Made by a program: the position numbers and the translations under genes. Source: a virus. From it: a DNA stretch of 22,297 nucleotides. Below, in pieces: positions 4,646 through 19,119 of the stretch (the stretch's first letter is position 1; every line of letters begins with the position of its first letter). The stretch lies in the IMG/VR virus record IMGVR_UViG_3300027851_000135, positions 1 to 22,297 of that record; one strand, 5' to 3'. Below the pieces are notes generated by a model. The model was not told the DNA's origin. It ran no database searches and was given only the letters and a program-made list of their open reading frames with translations.

Positions 4646-5242
4646 TTAAATCAAATAATGATTTCGTTTGGCTCGGTTATCTGCTTTAGGTATTACTTGC
4701 AAATTTGTAGGAACGTGCAATCCTGAAACATTTTCACCGCGTAGTGGAAGTATGTGATCAACTTCCCAAACAAAACCAAACATCTCGGTTCGCAGTTTAG
4801 CAAGTTTATACGCTTCACGCATCATCCATCGATCATCCGATGTAAGCCATTTTGGCACACGTTTGGCTCGTCTGGCAACACTTGCAACAGCAAGTGATGT
4901 GTATGTTGCCGGATTTTTAGCAATCCATCGTTTACGCTTAGCTGTCACTTTATCTGGATTAGCTTTTTCCCATGCCTTTTGATCAGATTTAACCTTGTCT
5001 TTGTTGGCAGCTTGCCATCGTTTTACACGGATTCCGTGAAGTTCTCGATTATTTTCTAACCATTTTCGCATCGACTGCGAATACTTTTCTGGGTTTTCAA
5101 TACGCCACGCTACTGACTGAAGTTTGGTACATTCTACGCATTTTGCGCCTTTAACATACCGATCTGCAAAATGACCTCGTTTACACGGCTTACCCGTGTT
5201 ATATCTATCTAGTCCGAGGTTTTTTGCTTCTTTTCGTTTCAC
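4646..5242 (-). CDS. HNH homing endonuclease with N-terminal zinc-finger motif
   Basis: 198 aa. Residues 20-38 hold C20-x3-H24 and C35-x2-C38, a likely zinc site found at the N-terminus of a group of phage HNH proteins. Residues about 50-120 are Lys/Arg/Trp-rich helical repeats (NPEKYSQSMRKWLENN, NKDKVKSDQKAWEKANPDKV) likely to bind DNA. The HNH nuclease lies at about 158-195: WEVDHILPLRG, then LHVPTNLQVIPKADNRAKRN. These are free-standing selfish endonucleases that cut alleles lacking the insertion. Translation starts at GTG (5242) inside a GTGA overlap with the upstream gene's stop. It is inserted between the DUF5856-like gene and the tail block and is more AT-rich than its upstream neighbours. 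Confidence 0.87.
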   Translation of the reverse strand: MKRKEAKNLGLDRYNTGKPCKRGHFADRYVKGAKCVECTKLQSVAWRIENPEKYSQSMRKWLENNRELHGIRVKRWQAANKDKVKSDQKAWEKANPDKVTAKRKRWIAKNPATYTSLAVASVARRAKRVPKWLTSDDRWMMREAYKLAKLRTEMFGFVWEVDHILPLRGENVSGLHVPTNLQVIPKADNRAKRNHYLI

Positions 5243-9697: not shown

Positions 9698-10195
9698 TTA
9701 AACTCCTGGTCTGTGAGTATGATACTCGGAAAGTGCGGATTGTCTGACTTTTACAGCATCTTCGATTGTTGAAAACGTACCCAGATAGATATTTTTTCCG
9801 TGTACCTTAATCTGTGCTTGCCATTTTTGATTGGCTTTATGCCATGTCACACCTTTATGCCCACTGGTGTTGTGTGAAAACCATGCAATGTTTTGCTTGT
9901 TTTCACTAGAGTCAACCTCACGCAGGTTACTTATTCGATTGTTGTGTTTGCATTGATCGATATGGTCAATCTCTGTAGGCCACGCGCCATGCACATACAA
10001 CCACGCCAATCGATGAGCTTTATACAATCTTCGATCCAGCATGATATTGACATATCGATCAGGTTCAGCGTGACCGGCAATAGATCCAGCTAATGCTTTT
10101 GATCCCCTCGTGTGTATCCAAGTAAACACACCAGTCTCAGGATCATAGTCCAATAATTCTTTAAGACGGTCTTGCGATATAATGTTGTCAGCCAT
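9698..10195 (-). CDS. HNH homing endonuclease with AP2 DNA-binding domain
   Basis: 165 aa from the ATG at 10195 (GGAG 6 bases ahead). The frame also allows an ATG at 10207, which has no ribosome site. Residues 55-100 carry the HNH signature (YKAHRLAWLYVHG, EIDHIDQCKHNNRISNLREV). Residues 112-160 form an AP2-type DNA-binding domain (GHKGVTWHKANQKWQAQIKV, then IYLGTFSTIEDAV). This architecture is typical of free-standing phage homing endonucleases. It sits between small and large terminase, and its last codons contain the ribosome site that feeds the TTG start of terL. A strong hairpin (10221-10255) separates it from the small terminase gene. Confidence 0.9.
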   Translation of the reverse strand: MADNIISQDRLKELLDYDPETGVFTWIHTRGSKALAGSIAGHAEPDRYVNIMLDRRLYKAHRLAWLYVHGAWPTEIDHIDQCKHNNRISNLREVDSSENKQNIAWFSHNTSGHKGVTWHKANQKWQAQIKVHGKNIYLGTFSTIEDAVKVRQSALSEYHTHRPGV

Positions 10196-10220
10196 TTGAT
10201 GCTCCATTCATCAGTGGTTA

Positions 10221-10266: not shown

Positions 10267-10776
10267 TCATTCTTCGTCGTGATCAATAATTCTTCCGGTA
10301 ATTAACCGCTGGTTAGCCTGCTCCAGCGCAGCCGTGATCGATATGTTCTGGTTCACCTCCAGCGTCTTGATGTCACCGTAGCGTTTCCTGTTCCAAGTCT
10401 TAATCAGGAACTGGCGCGAGTCGATACGCAGCTTAGATCGTTGAACATCCTCTGGTACACCGCTGTCATTCACACCATCAGCAATTTCCAGGATCTCAGC
10501 GGCGATCATTTCGCTACCAATCTCCTGAGCCTCGTAATACCTCGACTTACGCTGTGGGTCTTTGTGAATCCAGCGCAACAGTTGCGGATAGTCAAAATCA
10601 CGCTGGTCGTCCCGCAGAATCTCTTTTAGGTTGATTCCACGAGATAGCTTATCGAGAACGGTTTCAAAAAATACGCTGAATTGGGTTTCCCTCAACTCTT
10701 TAACTTGAGTCGATGGGTTAAGCCACGATGGTAATTCGATTGGTTGTGTCATTGTCAGCATGATAGCGCCATTCAT
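10267..10776 (-). CDS. terS: Terminase small subunit (Sf6-like)
   Basis: 169 aa. The central part (LSRGINLKEILRDD, LLRWIHKDPQRKSRYYEAQE) looks like the helix-turn-helix DNA-binding region of small terminases. The following segment (MIAAEILEIADGVND, VQRSKLRIDSRQFLIKTWNR, KRYGDIK) is the conserved oligomerisation helix pair of the Sf6-like family. It recognises the packaging site and hands DNA to TerL. It is the first gene of the leftward operon. The start is uncertain: ATGs at 10776, 10761 and 10752 are all in frame and none has a good ribosome site. A promoter candidate with its -10 at 10794-10789 would leave almost no leader for the first, which favours an internal start or another promoter. 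Confidence 0.85.
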   Translation of the reverse strand: MNGAIMLTMTQPIELPSWLNPSTQVKELRETQFSVFFETVLDKLSRGINLKEILRDDQRDFDYPQLLRWIHKDPQRKSRYYEAQEIGSEMIAAEILEIADGVNDSGVPEDVQRSKLRIDSRQFLIKTWNRKRYGDIKTLEVNQNISITAALEQANQRLITGRIIDHDEE

Positions 10777-10788
10777 TGAACGTGCTTC

Positions 10789-10817
10789 TATGTATCACAT
10801 CGGCAAGTAAGATGCAA
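10789..10817 (-). promoter_or_regulatory. Candidate leftward promoter before small terminase
   Basis: On the minus strand TTGCAT (10817-10812), a 17-bp spacer and TACATA (10794-10789) form a sigma70-like promoter with an extended -10 (TGA before TACATA). A CACAATGTG palindrome (10833-10841) lies 15 bases upstream of its -35. The predicted RNA start is only about 6 bases before the first terS ATG, so it would suit one of the internal starts or be leaderless. Confidence 0.35.
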
Positions 10818-10850
10818 GTGAGTTAGGTGATTCACAATGTGTAAATGTGT

Positions 10851-10880
10851 CATTTGAAAAAAATAATAAAATTTTCTTGG
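10851..10880. other. AT-rich tract beside the repeat arrays
   Basis: Thirty bases made almost entirely of A and T (runs AAAAAAAATAATAAAATTTT) stand out in an otherwise balanced region, just left of the decamer array. This could be a duplex-unwinding element if the region is an origin, or an UP-element-like or bent segment near the leftward promoter. Confidence 0.4.
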
Positions 10881-11030
10881 GGTACCTTACTGCCATTTTC
10901 CCATTTCCCTCGGACCCACCCCACCCCTTAATCAGGAATCCGGATTTTCCCAGCTTCACGTTGTCACAGTTGTCACAGTCACCACAACTAGGCGGATCAC
11001 TTGTCACAGTAGACAATGTGAACCATGTGA

Positions 11031-11090
11031 CCATGTGACCATGACCAATACACAATGTGACCATGTGACCATGACCAATACACAATGTGA
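11031..11090. repeat. Perfect 30-bp tandem duplication
   Basis: Bases 11031-11060 and 11061-11090 are identical. Each unit runs CCATGTGACC, ATGACCAATA, CACAATGTGA. Partial units flank both sides: AACCATGTGA before and ACCAATG after. Each unit contains one exact CACAATGTG palindrome. The sequence looks like recent unequal expansion of a binding-site array. Confidence 0.9.
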
Positions 11091-11139
11091 ACCAATGAAT
11101 TAGCACACATTGTGAGCAGGGGCAAACTGTGACAACTGT

Positions 11140-11166
11140 CCCTCCGCAGGCGAGGGGGGTGTTTTT
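11140..11166 (+). terminator. Candidate rho-independent terminator in the control region
   Basis: CCCTC/GAGGG stem (11140-11144 with 11152-11156), 7-base loop, then GGGTG and six T residues (11161-11166). It would stop plus-strand RNA before it enters the early promoter region. The stem is only 5 bp, although all but one pair are GC. Confidence 0.35.
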
Positions 11167-11367
11167 TGATACTTACCGCGATATTTCTCAAAAGTGGATA
11201 CCCCCGATTTCAGTCACACTTGTCACAGTTGATCATCACGCACAGTCTGACAATGTGATACATTGACAAGGTGAAAAGGGTAAACCCCATCGTATTAAAC
11301 CCTGAGCTCAGATCATTTTTCACATTGTGGAATGTAGATTATTTTCACTTTGTGGTGCAAAATAGTG

Positions 11368-11395
11368 TTGACAATGTGAAAACAGGTGCTACAAT
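11368..11395 (+). promoter_or_regulatory. Main rightward early promoter overlapped by operators
   Basis: Perfect -35 TTGACA (11368-11373), 16-bp spacer and -10 TACAAT (11390-11395). Both boxes are embedded in palindrome-like sites (GACAATGTG 11370-11378, TACAATGTG 11390-11398), so a protein bound there would block RNA polymerase. RNA should start near 11402, giving a leader of about 40 bases before the first early gene at 11442. Confidence 0.75.
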
Positions 11396-11441
11396 GTGAA
11401 TCATGCAGTCAGGTAACAGTCAATCAACTAGGAGCAACAAA

Positions 11442-11552
11442 ATGAATCCACTAACCAAACGTGCCACGCACAATGTAAACCGTGAAAACAATTTAATCGC
11501 CTGGGGTTCTGGTGTAGTGCTTGCCGCCCTTGTTATCGCTTTCCTTCTGTAA
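11442..11552 (+). CDS. 36-aa single-pass membrane peptide
   Basis: The first early gene after the promoter. MNPLTKRATHNVNRENNLIA is a polar, net-positive N-terminus, followed by WGSGVVLAALVIAFLL, a 16-residue hydrophobic segment that reaches the C-terminus. This looks like a tail-anchored inner-membrane miniprotein. A good AGGAG ribosome site lies 8 bases before the ATG. No family is recognised. Roles such as host takeover, superinfection control or lysis timing are possible, but nothing here selects among them. Confidence 0.65.
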   Translation: MNPLTKRATHNVNRENNLIAWGSGVVLAALVIAFLL

Positions 11553-13140: not shown

Positions 13141-13368
13141 ATGACCACGGAATTATCTAAAGCCGCTTTTATCCTATCGTACCAGGACCGACACAATATA
13201 ACCGATGATAAACTGTGCGACTTGTTAGGCGTTACTAAGTCGGCCTTATATAGCTGGAAAACGGGGGCGCGTGCCCCTAGTACGTCAGCGCACCGCATCG
13301 TCACGTTATTATCGCTATTAGAGACGCTTGCGCCTGATATTCATAGCTACATGGCGGGTAAGCCCTGA
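13141..13368 (+). CDS. Cro/XRE-like helix-turn-helix regulator
   Basis: 75 aa from the ATG at 13141 (AAAGGA 7 bases ahead; a longer open frame upstream overlaps the preceding peptide and lacks a ribosome site). Residues 21-42 (TDDKLCDLLGVTKSALYSWK) form a clear helix-turn-helix of the Cro/CI or YdaS-like type, followed by two helices (AHRIVTLLSLLETLAP). It is the last gene of the early operon and is followed by a terminator. It is the leading candidate to bind the CACAWTGTG array at the operon's own promoter, giving negative feedback. That link is an inference. Confidence 0.75.
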   Translation: MTTELSKAAFILSYQDRHNITDDKLCDLLGVTKSALYSWKTGARAPSTSAHRIVTLLSLLETLAPDIHSYMAGKP

Positions 13369-13386
13369 TCGTTGCACCATGATGCG

Positions 13387-13410
13387 AAAACGCCCCTTGC
13401 GGGGCGTTTT
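13387..13410. terminator. Bidirectional rho-independent terminator
   Basis: AAAACGCCCC, loop TTGC, GGGGCGTTTT: a perfect 10-bp stem with a tetraloop, A-run on one side and T-run on the other. It lies between the stop codons of the convergent Cro-like gene and primase gene and would end transcription from both sides. Confidence 0.95.
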
Positions 13411-15879
13411 TTATTTGTTGCCGTATACTTTCGGTTTCTCTTTACTTGATAGAGTGTAAATCTCATCAAGCTGACGCTGACGCGCTTCTATAACCTCGCG
13501 CCTATATTCGGCGTGCTGATCCACCAGCGCGGGATTGATGGCCCATTGAGCGCGATGCGTACCACTTAGGTCATCAATGCGTAGCACATAGCCTGCATCC
13601 TCTAACGGGATCATGGCAACGATGACCCGCGCTTCTTGTTGGTTCGGGTGGATATGGTCAAGCTGTCTGCGCCCTGCCCGTTTAATGTCGGACATGGTCA
13701 CCGTCTGCTTGTCCGCGTGCTGGATAATCCAATCGTGTACCCAACGCTCAAGGGTAGAACTGCCCCCGATGTCGCACAGGGCAGCGCGTAAAGCTGGCAC
13801 GATATAGGCTTTAGCAAAAGCCACAGCGCGGCGCATAAGGTCAGCGGTTACGAATGGTTCAAATGGGGCTTCGATAAGGTGAAAGATCAGGGCGATTCTG
13901 CCCGTAAGCCCCTCGAGCTTACCGAAGGCGGTCATAAACGATTCATCGGATTGTAATAGCCGTTCATCCTGTCGGCGCATGGCGTACCAGTCCTGGAAGT
14001 CGCTATAAACGGATGCTGCTTCGGGTGTTAGTCGGTACGTCATAGCCGGAAGGCTAAAGATGGCGCGTAAAGCCTGCGACCATTCGGCATCGTTTCGCAT
14101 ATAAGCGGGGATTTGCTCAGGCTTGCGCGTAAGTGATCCGTCAAGCACAACAGGGATAAAACGCTGAAGCAGACCATCGGCAGACAATGCAGCCATAGAT
14201 TCACGCAATACGCGAGGCTGGATGTTGCCATAGATCGCTACGGCCATGTTCTCCGCGTGGATCGTACCTGCACCAACTCGATCCATATCATAAGGCGCGG
14301 CCTCATAGCTGACTGTCCACGCTGACCGATCCTCACCGCTGCTACGATCGCATAGCTTACGCACCCAGCCTGCCATCTCATCGAGGTGACATAGCAGACC
14401 CTGGGGGCGGTCGGCAGCGAGACGCACGAGTTTTTGACTGGTGATGTCGCTGACCTTGATGCGTAAGGGAACGGGCTGCGGTGGCAGGTCGGGTACAGCG
14501 GGAGCTTGACCGCCTAATAAGGCTTCGGGGCTTTCGTTGAACTGGATAAAGGCTTTATGGGCTGACGCATACATGGCTTCGCGCCCCTCCCAGTCCAGCA
14601 GGGCTTTCTTATGCCGTGGTCGATCTTCTTGCTCAAGATCACCCAGGGTGGCGAACATAGGCGTAGAGCCAGGGGTTTTCTTATCGGCTGGCTCACCGAT
14701 GGTCATAAGCCACAAAACTGGTGGCACTTTGAACCCTTCGATTAGTTCTAATCGGCTTTCAGCATTAGCCACACCGCATACGGCAGCGAGTCCTGACCAT
14801 AGCGGCACCATCGGGTCGCAGCCTACCGTGATGCTGATTTGTTCTGCGCGAGTAGCAAGGACAGAAGGAAAGAGGGATAAGTCGGCGCGGGGTGCTGGTG
14901 GGTTGAGACTTTTTAACACCTGTTCGGGTGCGGACAGCTTAACGTGATTCTTAAACAGTTCGGTCACATCCACAGCAGGGCGTACCCAGCCGTGACGCTT
15001 GGCGATATGGAATAGCGAACCCAGCTTGACCGAATTGGCCTTGTCGGACTTGAAGCTCTGCCACTGCGTATAAATCTCACGCTCACCGGGGTACTTGGTC
15101 GGTGCTTCTTTGCTCCAGTCGTTCCAGATGTATAGCGCCTGGTCGAGTTGGTTAGTCTGACTACCTGCCCAGTGCAGCGCCATACCGCAAGCGATCCACT
15201 CATCGCGGGAGCAATCGCCAGGGATATGCTCCAGGGCTGCGGTGATCTCTTCCCATGACGCGTTAATAGCCTCACCGGATACCTTGATTGATCGCTCTTT
15301 GTCCAGATCCAGCAGCTCGTGCCATAGGTCCATCAGAGCTTCAGGGATCATCGGTAAGCGTGACCAGTGGCCCGTGCCTGCCCAGGTGTAGGGCTTACCT
15401 GTAGTTGGGTGCACAGAGGGTGGTAATACGTCTTGAACGGTTAAGCCGGTAGCACTCGCACAACGCAGCTCGTAAACGGTTTTACCCTCTAAAATGACCT
15501 TTTTCGTCACAGGAGCCATACCAAATGGCATCTGGTAAAGCAGTTTGCCATGCCCTGCCCTGCCGCTATCGACTACAACAGCATCGGGAGCGTGGTATAA
15601 AGCATTGAGATCGATACCCTTAGCAGCAAGCACGGAAGCGCATAGCTCCCACTCATCAATATCAAACGCCATCGTGCCTGAATAGGCATGAGCAAGCCCG
15701 ATACCATAGCCTACGGGTAGATCGGATTGCGACTTAAGTGCGTTTTCCTTGAGCTGCCAGCCTGGTGATCGTGGACCTTTGGTATTCGGTGGGATCGGTA
15801 CAAGTGACCAACCGTGTCGGATATAAGCATCGACTGAAGCGGGTGACTGTAGGATCTGTGGTTGCGGTGCGGTGTTCAT
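13411..15879 (-). CDS. Primase-polymerase with PriCT-2 and DUF3987 helicase-like domain
   Basis: 822 aa. The N-terminal AEP/Prim-Pol domain (about 15-190) shows AFDIDE (catalytic Asp73/Asp75), VVVDSGRAGHGKLLYQMP (about 101-118) and VLPPSVHPTTGKPYTW (151-166). A PriCT-2 domain follows at about 213-298 (DCSRDEWIACGMALHWAG). The C-terminal half is DUF3987: LWLMTIGEPADKKTPGS at the P-loop position (about 389-405), HLDEMAGWVRKL (498-509) and FIPVVL. It probably primes and unwinds replication forks. The P-loop lacks the usual second glycine (GEPADKKT, 395-402), so ATPase activity is uncertain. The ATG has GAGGCG just ahead. It is the only minus-strand gene in the replication half, convergent to the early operon. 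Confidence 0.88.
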   Translation of the reverse strand: MNTAPQPQILQSPASVDAYIRHGWSLVPIPPNTKGPRSPGWQLKENALKSQSDLPVGYGIGLAHAYSGTMAFDIDEWELCASVLAAKGIDLNALYHAPDAVVVDSGRAGHGKLLYQMPFGMAPVTKKVILEGKTVYELRCASATGLTVQDVLPPSVHPTTGKPYTWAGTGHWSRLPMIPEALMDLWHELLDLDKERSIKVSGEAINASWEEITAALEHIPGDCSRDEWIACGMALHWAGSQTNQLDQALYIWNDWSKEAPTKYPGEREIYTQWQSFKSDKANSVKLGSLFHIAKRHGWVRPAVDVTELFKNHVKLSAPEQVLKSLNPPAPRADLSLFPSVLATRAEQISITVGCDPMVPLWSGLAAVCGVANAESRLELIEGFKVPPVLWLMTIGEPADKKTPGSTPMFATLGDLEQEDRPRHKKALLDWEGREAMYASAHKAFIQFNESPEALLGGQAPAVPDLPPQPVPLRIKVSDITSQKLVRLAADRPQGLLCHLDEMAGWVRKLCDRSSGEDRSAWTVSYEAAPYDMDRVGAGTIHAENMAVAIYGNIQPRVLRESMAALSADGLLQRFIPVVLDGSLTRKPEQIPAYMRNDAEWSQALRAIFSLPAMTYRLTPEAASVYSDFQDWYAMRRQDERLLQSDESFMTAFGKLEGLTGRIALIFHLIEAPFEPFVTADLMRRAVAFAKAYIVPALRAALCDIGGSSTLERWVHDWIIQHADKQTVTMSDIKRAGRRQLDHIHPNQQEARVIVAMIPLEDAGYVLRIDDLSGTHRAQWAINPALVDQHAEYRREVIEARQRQLDEIYTLSSKEKPKVYGNK

Positions 15880-15912: not shown

Positions 15913-15942
15913 TTGACAAGCATAGCACAAATAAACTACACT
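15913..15942 (+). promoter_or_regulatory. Rightward promoter for replication/recombination genes
   Basis: Perfect TTGACA (15913-15918), 18-bp spacer, TACACT (15937-15942). RNA would start near 15949, about 24 bases before the ribbon-helix-helix start codon. Confidence 0.55.
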
Positions 15943-15972: not shown

Positions 15973-16164
15973 ATGACTCTACCAAAGAACTTTACAGCTT
16001 TCCTGACAGTGCGGCTGAATCGCAAGACAGCCGATGCTTTCAGAACCAAAGCTAAGGAATATGGCGGCACTTCTGAGGTGATGCGAGAGATCGTTGAAGC
16101 CTTCATTGATGGCCGTCTGACAGTGCAGCCCAACCCCAACCGTAAGACCCTTTTTAACCAGTAA
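15973..16164 (+). CDS. Ribbon-helix-helix (Arc/CopG-like) DNA-binding protein
   Basis: 63 aa starting MTLPKNFTAFLTVRLNRKTA. The layout is a beta-strand (FLTVRLN), helix A (KTADAFRTKAKEYG), a turn with TSE, and helix B (VMREIVEAFIDGRL), the standard ribbon-helix-helix fold used by small phage repressors. It lacks a clear Shine-Dalgarno (only ACAAATT before the ATG), unlike its neighbours, so it may be translated weakly. It is the first gene after the divergent promoters and their inverted repeat, suggesting self-regulation. Confidence 0.72.
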   Translation: MTLPKNFTAFLTVRLNRKTADAFRTKAKEYGGTSEVMREIVEAFIDGRLTVQPNPNRKTLFNQ

Positions 16165-18501: not shown

Positions 18502-18555
18502 GGGGTGGCGTCGATCAACTAACTGGAGATCGTGCACGGGAAATGCAGCCACCCC
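18502..18555 (+). ncRNA. Predicted three-way-junction RNA element
   Basis: All three helices pair perfectly. P1 is GGGGTGGC (18502-18509) with GCCACCCC (18548-18555). P2 is CGATC (18512-18516) with GATCG (18528-18532). P3 is TGCA (18533-18536) with TGCA (18544-18547). P2, P3 and the closing strand of P1 abut without spare bases, leaving only GT unpaired in the junction, which looks designed rather than random. A short T-containing tail (ATCTTTT) follows P1, so it may act as a terminator or stability element. It matches no riboswitch or ribozyme core I know. It lies in the gap between the single-stranded DNA-binding gene and the HNH gene. Confidence 0.5.
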
Positions 18556-18576
18556 ATCTTTTGTAAAGTAAATGTT

Positions 18577-19119
18577 ATGTCAACTAGATCAGAATCTGAT
18601 AAAACATATTATCAAAAAAACCGCGAAGCACGACTTCAGTGGCAGCGGGAATATTATCAAAAGAATCGTGAAAAACGGCAGCAGTCTATTAAAAAATATG
18701 ACGCTGCCAATCTTGAACGATTAATCGAGTATCGCAAAGAATATCGAAAAATCAATGCTACGGAACTAAATCATAAAAAACGTGAATACATAAAAAAGAA
18801 GTATTCTGTAGATCCACTTTCTCGATTTAAAAAACGAATCCGTACATTGATTTACACCAAATTAAAGAATCAAGGATATACCAAACGATCTAAGACGTTT
18901 GAGATTCTTGGCTGTGAATACAATGAATTTCTTGAACACATCTCGTCTAAATTTTCTGATGGTATGTCTTGGGAAAATCATGGTGAATGGCATCTTGATC
19001 ATATTGTTCCAGTTGCTATTGCTAAGACTGAAGAAGAAGTTATTCGATTGAATCATTACACTAACTTTCAACCTTTGTGGGCTATTGATAATCTTCGCAA
19101 GGGTGTGAACTATGTCTAA
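18577..19119 (+). CDS. HNH homing endonuclease (third in window)
   Basis: 180 aa from the ATG at 18577. Residues 1-90 are a highly charged Lys/Arg/Tyr-rich helical region (KTYYQKNREARLQWQREYYQ and similar repeats) likely to grip DNA. The nuclease part has FEILGCEYNEFLEHISSKF, GEWHLDHIVPVA and HYTNFQPLWAIDNLRKG, the standard phage HNH layout. An upstream in-frame GTG (18532) is poorly spaced from its GGAG (3 bases) and lies inside the predicted RNA fold, so 18577 is preferred, although its own ribosome site is weak. The gene is AT-rich and its stop overlaps the DNA polymerase start by 8 bases. Confidence 0.87.
   Translation: MSTRSESDKTYYQKNREARLQWQREYYQKNREKRQQSIKKYDAANLERLIEYRKEYRKINATELNHKKREYIKKKYSVDPLSRFKKRIRTLIYTKLKNQGYTKRSKTFEILGCEYNEFLEHISSKFSDGMSWENHGEWHLDHIVPVAIAKTEEEVIRLNHYTNFQPLWAIDNLRKGVNYV

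Follow-up and report, generated by a model that had tools for sequence, protein, structure and literature searches.

Palindromic operators at the early and late promoters of a phage family, and a conserved stem-loop beside them: a probable early-to-late switch with a putative replication origin

Genes around the control region and in related phages

The window analyzed here is one complete IMG/VR virus record of 22,297 bases. Its genes are arranged around a divergent intergenic region at 10777–11441, as described in the initial annotation. Leftward from this control region run the late genes, the first coding for an Sf6-type terminase small subunit (TerS; 10267–10776, minus strand; 62.8 bits in Pfam), followed by the large terminase (TerL) and others. 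Rightward, small early ORFs begin at 11442 and end with the gene for a 75-amino-acid helix-turn-helix (HTH) protein (13141–13368, plus strand; assigned from sequence and a structure model). Beyond the HTH gene lie a leftward gene for a Prim-Pol/PriCT_2/DUF3987 primase-helicase (13411–15879, minus strand; Pfam and a model, with a predicted C-terminal winged helix) and then a rightward block coding for a ribbon-helix-helix (RHH)-like protein (15973–16164, plus strand), a DUF2800 protein, an ssDNA-binding protein (SSB), and a DNA polymerase. Inspecting the translations by eye, we also noticed HNH-type homing endonuclease-like ORFs at 4646–5242 and 9698–10207 (both minus strand) and at 18532–19119 (plus strand); one such ORF lies between terS and terL.

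Among the named phages of the collection, the closest is Phage DSL-LC05 (OR003940), which matches the primase at 64% across 79% of the query and TerL at 75%. Passages of the paper on this genome present it as assembled from a lake metagenome, predicted to be lytic, and not near known families (PMC10611076). Its gene list is podovirus-like, and its annotation contains no integrase. A pattern-based scan with the primase alignment across 84,980 bacterial and archaeal genomes found no clear prophage and confirmed a single relative. The phage family is probably lytic and, judging from the DSL-LC05 gene list, podovirus-like. The one relative from the scan (L190; JAGWWT010000012.1; primase 55% identity) is a contig of 36 kb assigned to a Patescibacteria MAG, and is probably a phage contig swept into that bin.

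We gathered the control regions adjoining terS from DSL-LC05 and from IMG/VR relatives found through the HTH protein, the primase, and TerL, setting the region borders in relatives from the TerS match itself. Leaving out duplicates (>300 common 40-mers) and regions shorter than 900 nt, this yielded 70 non-redundant loci, the window among them, each with TerS, the HTH protein, and a region of at least 900 nt; L007 is identical to the window. Since the relatives all come from metagenome assemblies, promoter logic read from the sequence is the main way into this family.

Motif 1 at the early and late promoters

The initial annotation reported about ten CACAWTGTG-type sites (motif 1), and we indeed count five exact copies (10833, 11051, 11081, 11106, and 11321) and five with one mismatch (11012, 11249, 11346, 11370, and 11390) within 10777–11441. 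The remaining record has no exact copy and six with one mismatch; for the flanked form TCACAWTGTGA, one mismatch allowed, there are seven sites inside the region and none outside. The five exact TTGTCACAGT decamers (motif 2) that had been reported are also present, at 10961, 10970, 11001, 11126 (minus strand), and 11220, with none elsewhere in the record; at one mismatch the decamer occurs nowhere inside the region and once outside, and the backwards pattern gives no match. The count over the whole record thus finds no exact copy of either motif beyond the region, and the AT-rich tract that had been noted corresponds to an A/T tract at 10857–10875. Equal frequency elsewhere and a lack of conservation in relatives had been named as grounds for abandoning the control-region reading; we found neither, and the layout of the region recurs in related loci.

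Across these loci the letters of motif 1 change and its place is kept. In 57 of the 70, ACCCnnnGGGT-type sites stand in place of CACAWTGTG, with at least five ACCCNNNGGGT sites in 1.4 kb at up to one mismatch, and by the same measure another four loci have three or four. The window clade makes up six loci, each with at least three TCACAnTGTGA; two loci carry AGCCAnTGGCT, and one falls into none of the classes by these cut-offs. With the CACA- and GCCA-class loci set aside, ACCCNNNGGGT at up to one mismatch reaches 5.79/kb in the regions versus 0.55/kb in the remainder of the same loci. Exact ACCCANTGGGT is found in 22 of 24 records of 35.5–39.2 kb, its copies confined, among the matches listed, to ∼1.4 kb per record; reversed ACCCANTGGGT, used as a control, is absent from 23 of the 24. 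Most loci have 5–13 operators within one region. In the window clade, ACAATGTGA is present in seven of eight records, the eighth ending within the region. A 37-kb record has six copies and a 15-kb record eight; of the 11 copies in an 18-kb record, 10 lie in the region; L040 and L041 have merely two each, one of the two lying beyond the region. A literature search on the operator strings returned unrelated papers among the matches listed. Other repeats were noticed in passing: CCGTAACCC-type repeats before early-gene starts in the control regions of L131, L139, and L135, and a TTGTAAC-type unit in tandem ahead of the first early gene of L072.

This change of letters bears on the idea that host CRP, or a relative of it, binds the TGTGA/TCACA pentamers common to both motifs. 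These pentamers reach 23.8/kb in 800 nt of L033 versus 1.8/kb elsewhere, and the half-site resembles that of CRP. However, the window has no TGTGAN6TCACA, the pentamers are everted, and most relatives keep the layout with ACCCAnTGGGT, so that we regard binding by CRP as highly improbable.

The HTH protein is the best candidate among possible readers of motif 1. It reaches no Pfam family cut-off (HTH_3, PF01381, 18.6 bits against 23; Phage_CI_repr, PF07022, 19.6 against 22). Its predicted structure is all-helical, with five helices (pLDDT 92), and finds weak Foldseek matches to antitoxins, C proteins, and phage repressors, including P22 C2 and C.Esp1396I; XRE-type chains are among the top matches (best E-value 0.032). 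In 66 different HTH proteins, the residue preceding the recognition-helix tryptophan is Ser or Ala in the six of the CACA class and Lys or His in the other 60, and S38 of the window protein falls in the predicted recognition helix (residues 33–41, pLDDT 92). This agreement is suggestive only, because the switch between CACA and CCCA is one evolutionary event, and for that reason the HTH protein cannot be singled out statistically. A specificity code of His versus Lys at this residue was rejected, His being found both with GCCAnTGGC (L073 and L076) and with ACCCAGTGGGT (L129). The RHH-like protein makes a poorer candidate: its FLTVR strand is common to the window clade and CCCA-class relatives such as L022, L023, and L102 (it varies in others), which argues against its reading motif 1.

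The early promoter of the window, TTGACA-16-TACAAT (11368–11395, plus strand; consensus scan), matches at 11 of 12 positions and is TG-extended. Motif-1 sites lie over its −35 (11370–11378) and its −10 (11390–11398), 20 bp apart, with two more upstream at 11321–11354 (11321, exact; 11346, one mismatch) and a further one-mismatch site at 11249–11257. A strong terminator-like hairpin just behind the HTH gene (13386–13411, plus strand; scan) closes the operon, so that the HTH gene should be the last gene transcribed from this promoter. The scan found three promoter-like sites in the window, one of them before the RHH-like gene (15913–15942), versus 6.7 in shuffled sequences; the count thus proves nothing, and it is conservation that carries the argument. 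A promoter matching at least 10 of 12 positions is found within 900 nt in 38 of the 70 loci, and an operator overlaps it in 30 of these 38; 1000 random shifts gave 11.1 such loci on average and never more than 21. The operator typically occupies the spacer between −35 and −10 in relatives (TTGACACCGTGACCCAGTGGGTTATAAT in L170, for example), and its center is 6 nt upstream of the early −10 in 25 of 36 loci (L073 and L076 excluded). We do not claim phasing between the two operators of the early promoter, where R varies from 0.35 to 0.67 with the period and many related loci sit at 59–60 bp. Our reading of operators over the early promoter is repression and, through the position of the HTH gene, negative autoregulation; that motif 1 is the operator of the HTH protein, and that this protein represses the early promoter, seems to us very probable.

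On the other side of the region, the terS promoter (10789–10817, minus strand; identified from the sequence) consists of a −35 TTGCAT at 10812–10817, a spacer of 17, and a −10 TACATA at 10789–10794 within TGTGATACATAG. It was not among the sites listed by the consensus scan. The −10 appears in the window as TGATACATA, with similar forms in relatives, many of which have in common an extended −10 upstream of terS (TGnTAGnnT, often TGATAGCAT). A search of the stretch 13–18 nt ahead of the terS ATG places the start of the best −10 hexamer at 15 or 16 nt in all of 38 loci, and the leader of the late mRNA should therefore be only a few bases long. An almost leaderless late mRNA is expected in many relatives, L042 and L006 among them.

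Upstream of this promoter is the motif-1 operator CACAATGTG (10833–10841), its center 43 bp from the start of the −10, or roughly −55 from the expected start of transcription; the A/T tract lies upstream of it. We measured the distance from the late −10 to the nearest operator center in 62 non-redundant loci, after dropping 22 loci without a recognizable terS start and loci with an identical 100 nt upstream of the −10. An operator is present at 25–115 bp in 50 of the 62; the 12 loci with none within 115 bp include L076 and L110, which were searched with the ACCC pattern although they belong to the GCCA class. Four classes, defined after the data were seen, take in all 44 distances from 31 to 63 bp: 31–35 bp (11 loci), 42–44 bp (26), 52–54 bp (six), and 63 bp (one). 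The fitted period is 10.3 bp (R = 0.88; periods of 6–20 bp scanned), and the distance from the operator to the terS ATG, which is independent of the choice of −10, gives 10.2 bp (R = 0.82, 38 loci).

On a TerS tree, the spacing class changes at least 16 times, a number that weak forks can inflate in this quick tree with 14 of 57 inner branches strongly supported. Near relatives differ by one turn in L158/L160 (53 and 44 bp), L179/L183 (52 and 43 bp), and L118/L119/L120 (43, 34, and 54 bp). When 17 at a time were drawn from 23 hand-picked sister-group values, R stayed at or above 0.87; none of 20,000 uniform sets of 17 exceeded 0.82. The remaining six distances, 68–102 bp, are unphased and all come from one subclade of seven, the seventh member of which has 52 bp. 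In this subclade (L023, L024, L025, L092, L095, L100, and L114) operators are plentiful, GACACA-like blocks lie between the operators and the terS promoter, and the HTH protein, where seen, reads LNV...IKW. A stricter search for a TG-extended −10 succeeded in 36 of the 70 loci, five of them without an operator; its two outliers from the phase, L111 (21 bp) and L009 (60 bp), are taken for misassigned promoters, and L127 (63 bp) and L126 (73 bp), both from the 22 dropped loci, are in phase.

A bound regulator in direct contact with RNA polymerase would demand that the same helix face be kept, and we think it likely that the HTH protein makes such a contact at the late promoter. What the contact does is a separate matter. 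Several late promoters are near consensus (TTGACA-17-TAGCAT in L071), so that contact might repress or merely modulate. Two points make us lean somewhat toward activation: the same protein would sit on the early promoter, and the −35 element is poor at many late promoters.

It is also conceivable, if less probable, that the HTH protein is a repressor only, shutting the early promoter and holding the late promoter down from upstream or by looping between the array and the promoter, with no activation. The overlap of operators with the early promoter fits this reading, the near-consensus late promoters may need no help, and looping between operators also predicts helical phase. What speaks against a pure repressor is that phase relative to the late −10 is kept whereas spacings between operators within the array are unphased (n = 128; no period tried gave R above 0.14). 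In addition, in 44 loci the mean distance between the end of the longest A/T run and the operator center is 18 bp (SD 6), and on average this tract shifts with the operator. In the window, the putative array comprises the sites at 11012 (one mismatch), 11051, 11081, and 11106 (11012–11114) and contains 30-bp direct repeats at 11022–11081.

A conserved stem-loop element and its possible roles

Aligning the stretch ahead of the early promoter brought out a second conserved element of ∼110 nt. A profile of it, from whose seed the misplaced rows L119, L151, L176, and L184 were excluded, gives a single match per locus in 106 loci, duplicates included. Among the non-redundant set the element is present in 66 of 70 loci and in every operator class; the profile finds none in L096, L030, L176, and L119. 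In the window it spans 11125–11231 (plus strand; alignment, profile, and folding) and consists of arms at 11125–11139 and 11216–11230, an inner hairpin CCCTCCGCAGGCGAGGG, and an AT-rich part. It contains two of the TTGTCACAGT copies, the other three (10961, 10970, and 11001) lying at 10961–11010 (plus strand). The order in relatives is a GTGACA arm, a hairpin core such as CGCGCAGGCGAGG, an AT-rich stretch, CCCCC in many loci, and a GTCACA arm.

The initial annotation described both motifs as odd palindromes. The sites are real, but TGT-S-ACA is probably not the true unit of motif 2: relatives repeat GTCACA, twice per arm in many loci, with the two arms inverted about a hairpin. The inner arm halves vary by clade and yet pair, as do GTGCGTCAATTGTGAC with GTCACAACTGACGCAC in L071 and TGACAAGTTGCCCTTT with the complementary AAAGGGCAAATTGTCA in L006. 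Arms score 9.46 for pairing with their own partner versus 7.29 when swapped (79 elements); for 38 dissimilar representatives the values are 8.95 and 7.11, which none of 5000 permutations reaches. A score of at least 9 is attained by 48% of elements and 1.8% of random segments, and pairing is weak in some loci (score 5 in L170). Folded as single-stranded DNA, the window element forms a modest stem (z = −2.63). An automatic consensus fold of the element alignment came out empty, probably because the arms are out of register, and Rfam gave seven matches up to E = 5, none at the gathering score.

That two binding systems are at work, one of the two options in the annotation, now appears likely because the motif-2 element accompanies every operator class. 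The same observation tells against the notion that both motifs are iterons of one origin, with motif 1 bound by a replication initiator instead of a regulator. Many direct copies beside an AT-rich tract, in a region with a conserved stem-loop, are what iterons would look like; but all classes have the stem-loop even though motif-1 letters differ among clades, and the operators have set places in promoters. We judge a single iteron origin to be very unlikely.

The element has the stem-loop anatomy of pRN1 (see below), which makes a replication origin for the phage's own Prim-Pol/helicase the best explanation, one to which we give an even chance. The Prim-Pol domain of the window protein is clear (PF09250, 61.1 bits against a cut-off of 22.8). 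Residues 356–699 match DUF3987, and no SF3 helicase family appears up to E = 0.1 among Pfam profiles. The C-terminal 159 residues are modeled as winged-helix-like, with helices and wing strands (pLDDT 78), and the model has weak MarR-like structure matches (best E = 0.006). The GC skew that the annotation suggested computing gives, at fourfold sites, no pointer to an origin; the coding-strand skew is gene-dependent (TerL +0.17, SSB −0.35).

Motif 2 may be read by this winged helix or by the RHH-like protein, both possible candidates. A T-V-R strand is also what the omega repressor of pSM19035 uses to recognize WATCACW heptads, and we take it to be similar to the FLTVR strand of the RHH-like protein. 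By sequence, the RHH-like protein has no solved relative, with one chance match at E = 1.1.

The position of the element near terS, together with a window hairpin that is terminator-like on the plus strand, would also suit a role in packaging, as a pac or cos site, or in transcription termination, in place of an origin. We consider this explanation rather unlikely, given that the hairpin lacks a following T run in several other clades and that the three full-length contigs that terminate in or near the region have no end point in common; two of them show terminal overlaps of 120 and 127 bases, the third none. A cos site or terminus was rejected on account of these differing ends and of the assembler-type overlaps in two contigs. 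Overlaps like those of the two contigs concerned, G014 and G024, are left by assemblers on circular or circularly permuted DNA.

Our preferred explanation, which we hold to be reasonably probable, is a two-part control region: an early-to-late switch and, separate from it, an origin-like stem-loop. The HTH protein would be the last product of the early operon and would bind odd palindromes (CACAWTGTG in the window, ACCCAnTGGGT in most relatives). On the early promoter it would shut off early transcription and its own gene; at the operator upstream of the terS promoter it would touch RNA polymerase, most likely activating late transcription. It is the phased operator spacing, suggesting polymerase contact, that points to a switch made by one protein. 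The stem-loop, with its GTCACA arms (TTGTCACAGT sites), would serve as the replication origin for the Prim-Pol/helicase. The annotation had left the choice among origin, switch, or both; the layout, the helical spacing, and the conserved stem-loop fit best with both, although motif 2 is not a palindrome family as such. A further-reaching picture is tentative: one small HTH protein might make up the whole early-to-late switch of a large lytic family, the array around the origin might tie late transcription to DNA replication, the recognition helix might change together with the operator letters from clade to clade, and at the late promoter the operator might keep its helix face toward the polymerase through many insertions and deletions of whole turns.

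Comparison with known systems

The family offers a natural experiment on helical phasing, in which the operator has moved by one, two, or three turns relative to the late promoter and, loci without such an operator aside, half-turn moves are absent except in one subclade. The proposed switch is compact, with operators of two or more specificities, and the stem-loop is a candidate phage origin of the Prim-Pol kind that lends itself to testing. Dual regulators and Prim-Pol stem-loop origins are kinds already known; searches of one open library, mostly directed at other questions, turned up no account of their combination in this phage family.

According to PMC4234260 on the pRN1 origin, a construct without the 100-bp stem-loop replicated again once this was supplied, the symmetry of the stem mattered, and a small repressor gene is located inside the replication operon; its authors proposed that phage BIP-1 has an origin of this kind too, and the mechanism of Prim-Pol stem-loop origins is disputed. 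The window resembles these systems, as presented there, in its Prim-Pol protein with a predicted winged helix, a small putative repressor gene nearby, and an element of ∼100 nt whose arms are kept by complementarity more than by letters. It differs in that the helicase part is DUF3987, not SF3, the stem is shorter, and the element lies 2.2 kb past the 3′ end of the primase gene, behind the early operon.

Repressor–operator specificities that evolve within a phage group are known from the stoperators of Cluster A mycobacteriophages (PMC6550527; PMC9283540), a likeness to the present family. Stoperators are described as asymmetric and spread over the genome (PMC9283540); the sites here are palindromic and, among the matches listed for the 24 records of 35.5–39.2 kb, clustered in the control region.

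In its small HTH protein the system is like lambda CI, which according to a passage in PMC3100819 represses and activates by position, and like other phage repressors and the C proteins of restriction-modification systems, which PMC3115060 describes as a genetic switch that works by activation as well as by repression. It is unlike lambda CI and the C proteins in the lack of an annotated integrase in DSL-LC05, in an HTH protein that scores below Pfam cut-offs, and in having 5–13 operators per region.

In layout, a parallel can be drawn with p4 of phi29. According to PMC3100819, p4 is an early protein that has several inverted repeats as its sites between the early and late promoters; two of them cover early −35 elements, and p4 activates a late promoter whose −35 is poor. 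In both cases the sites, putative in the window, of one early protein lie at early and late promoters within one divergent region. The p4 protein has a novel, unrelated fold with beta strands, 15 bp between the arms of its sites, and a partner, p6; the window has instead a 75-amino-acid HTH protein with an all-helical model and short odd palindromes, and its activation of the late promoter is proposed from the phased spacing.
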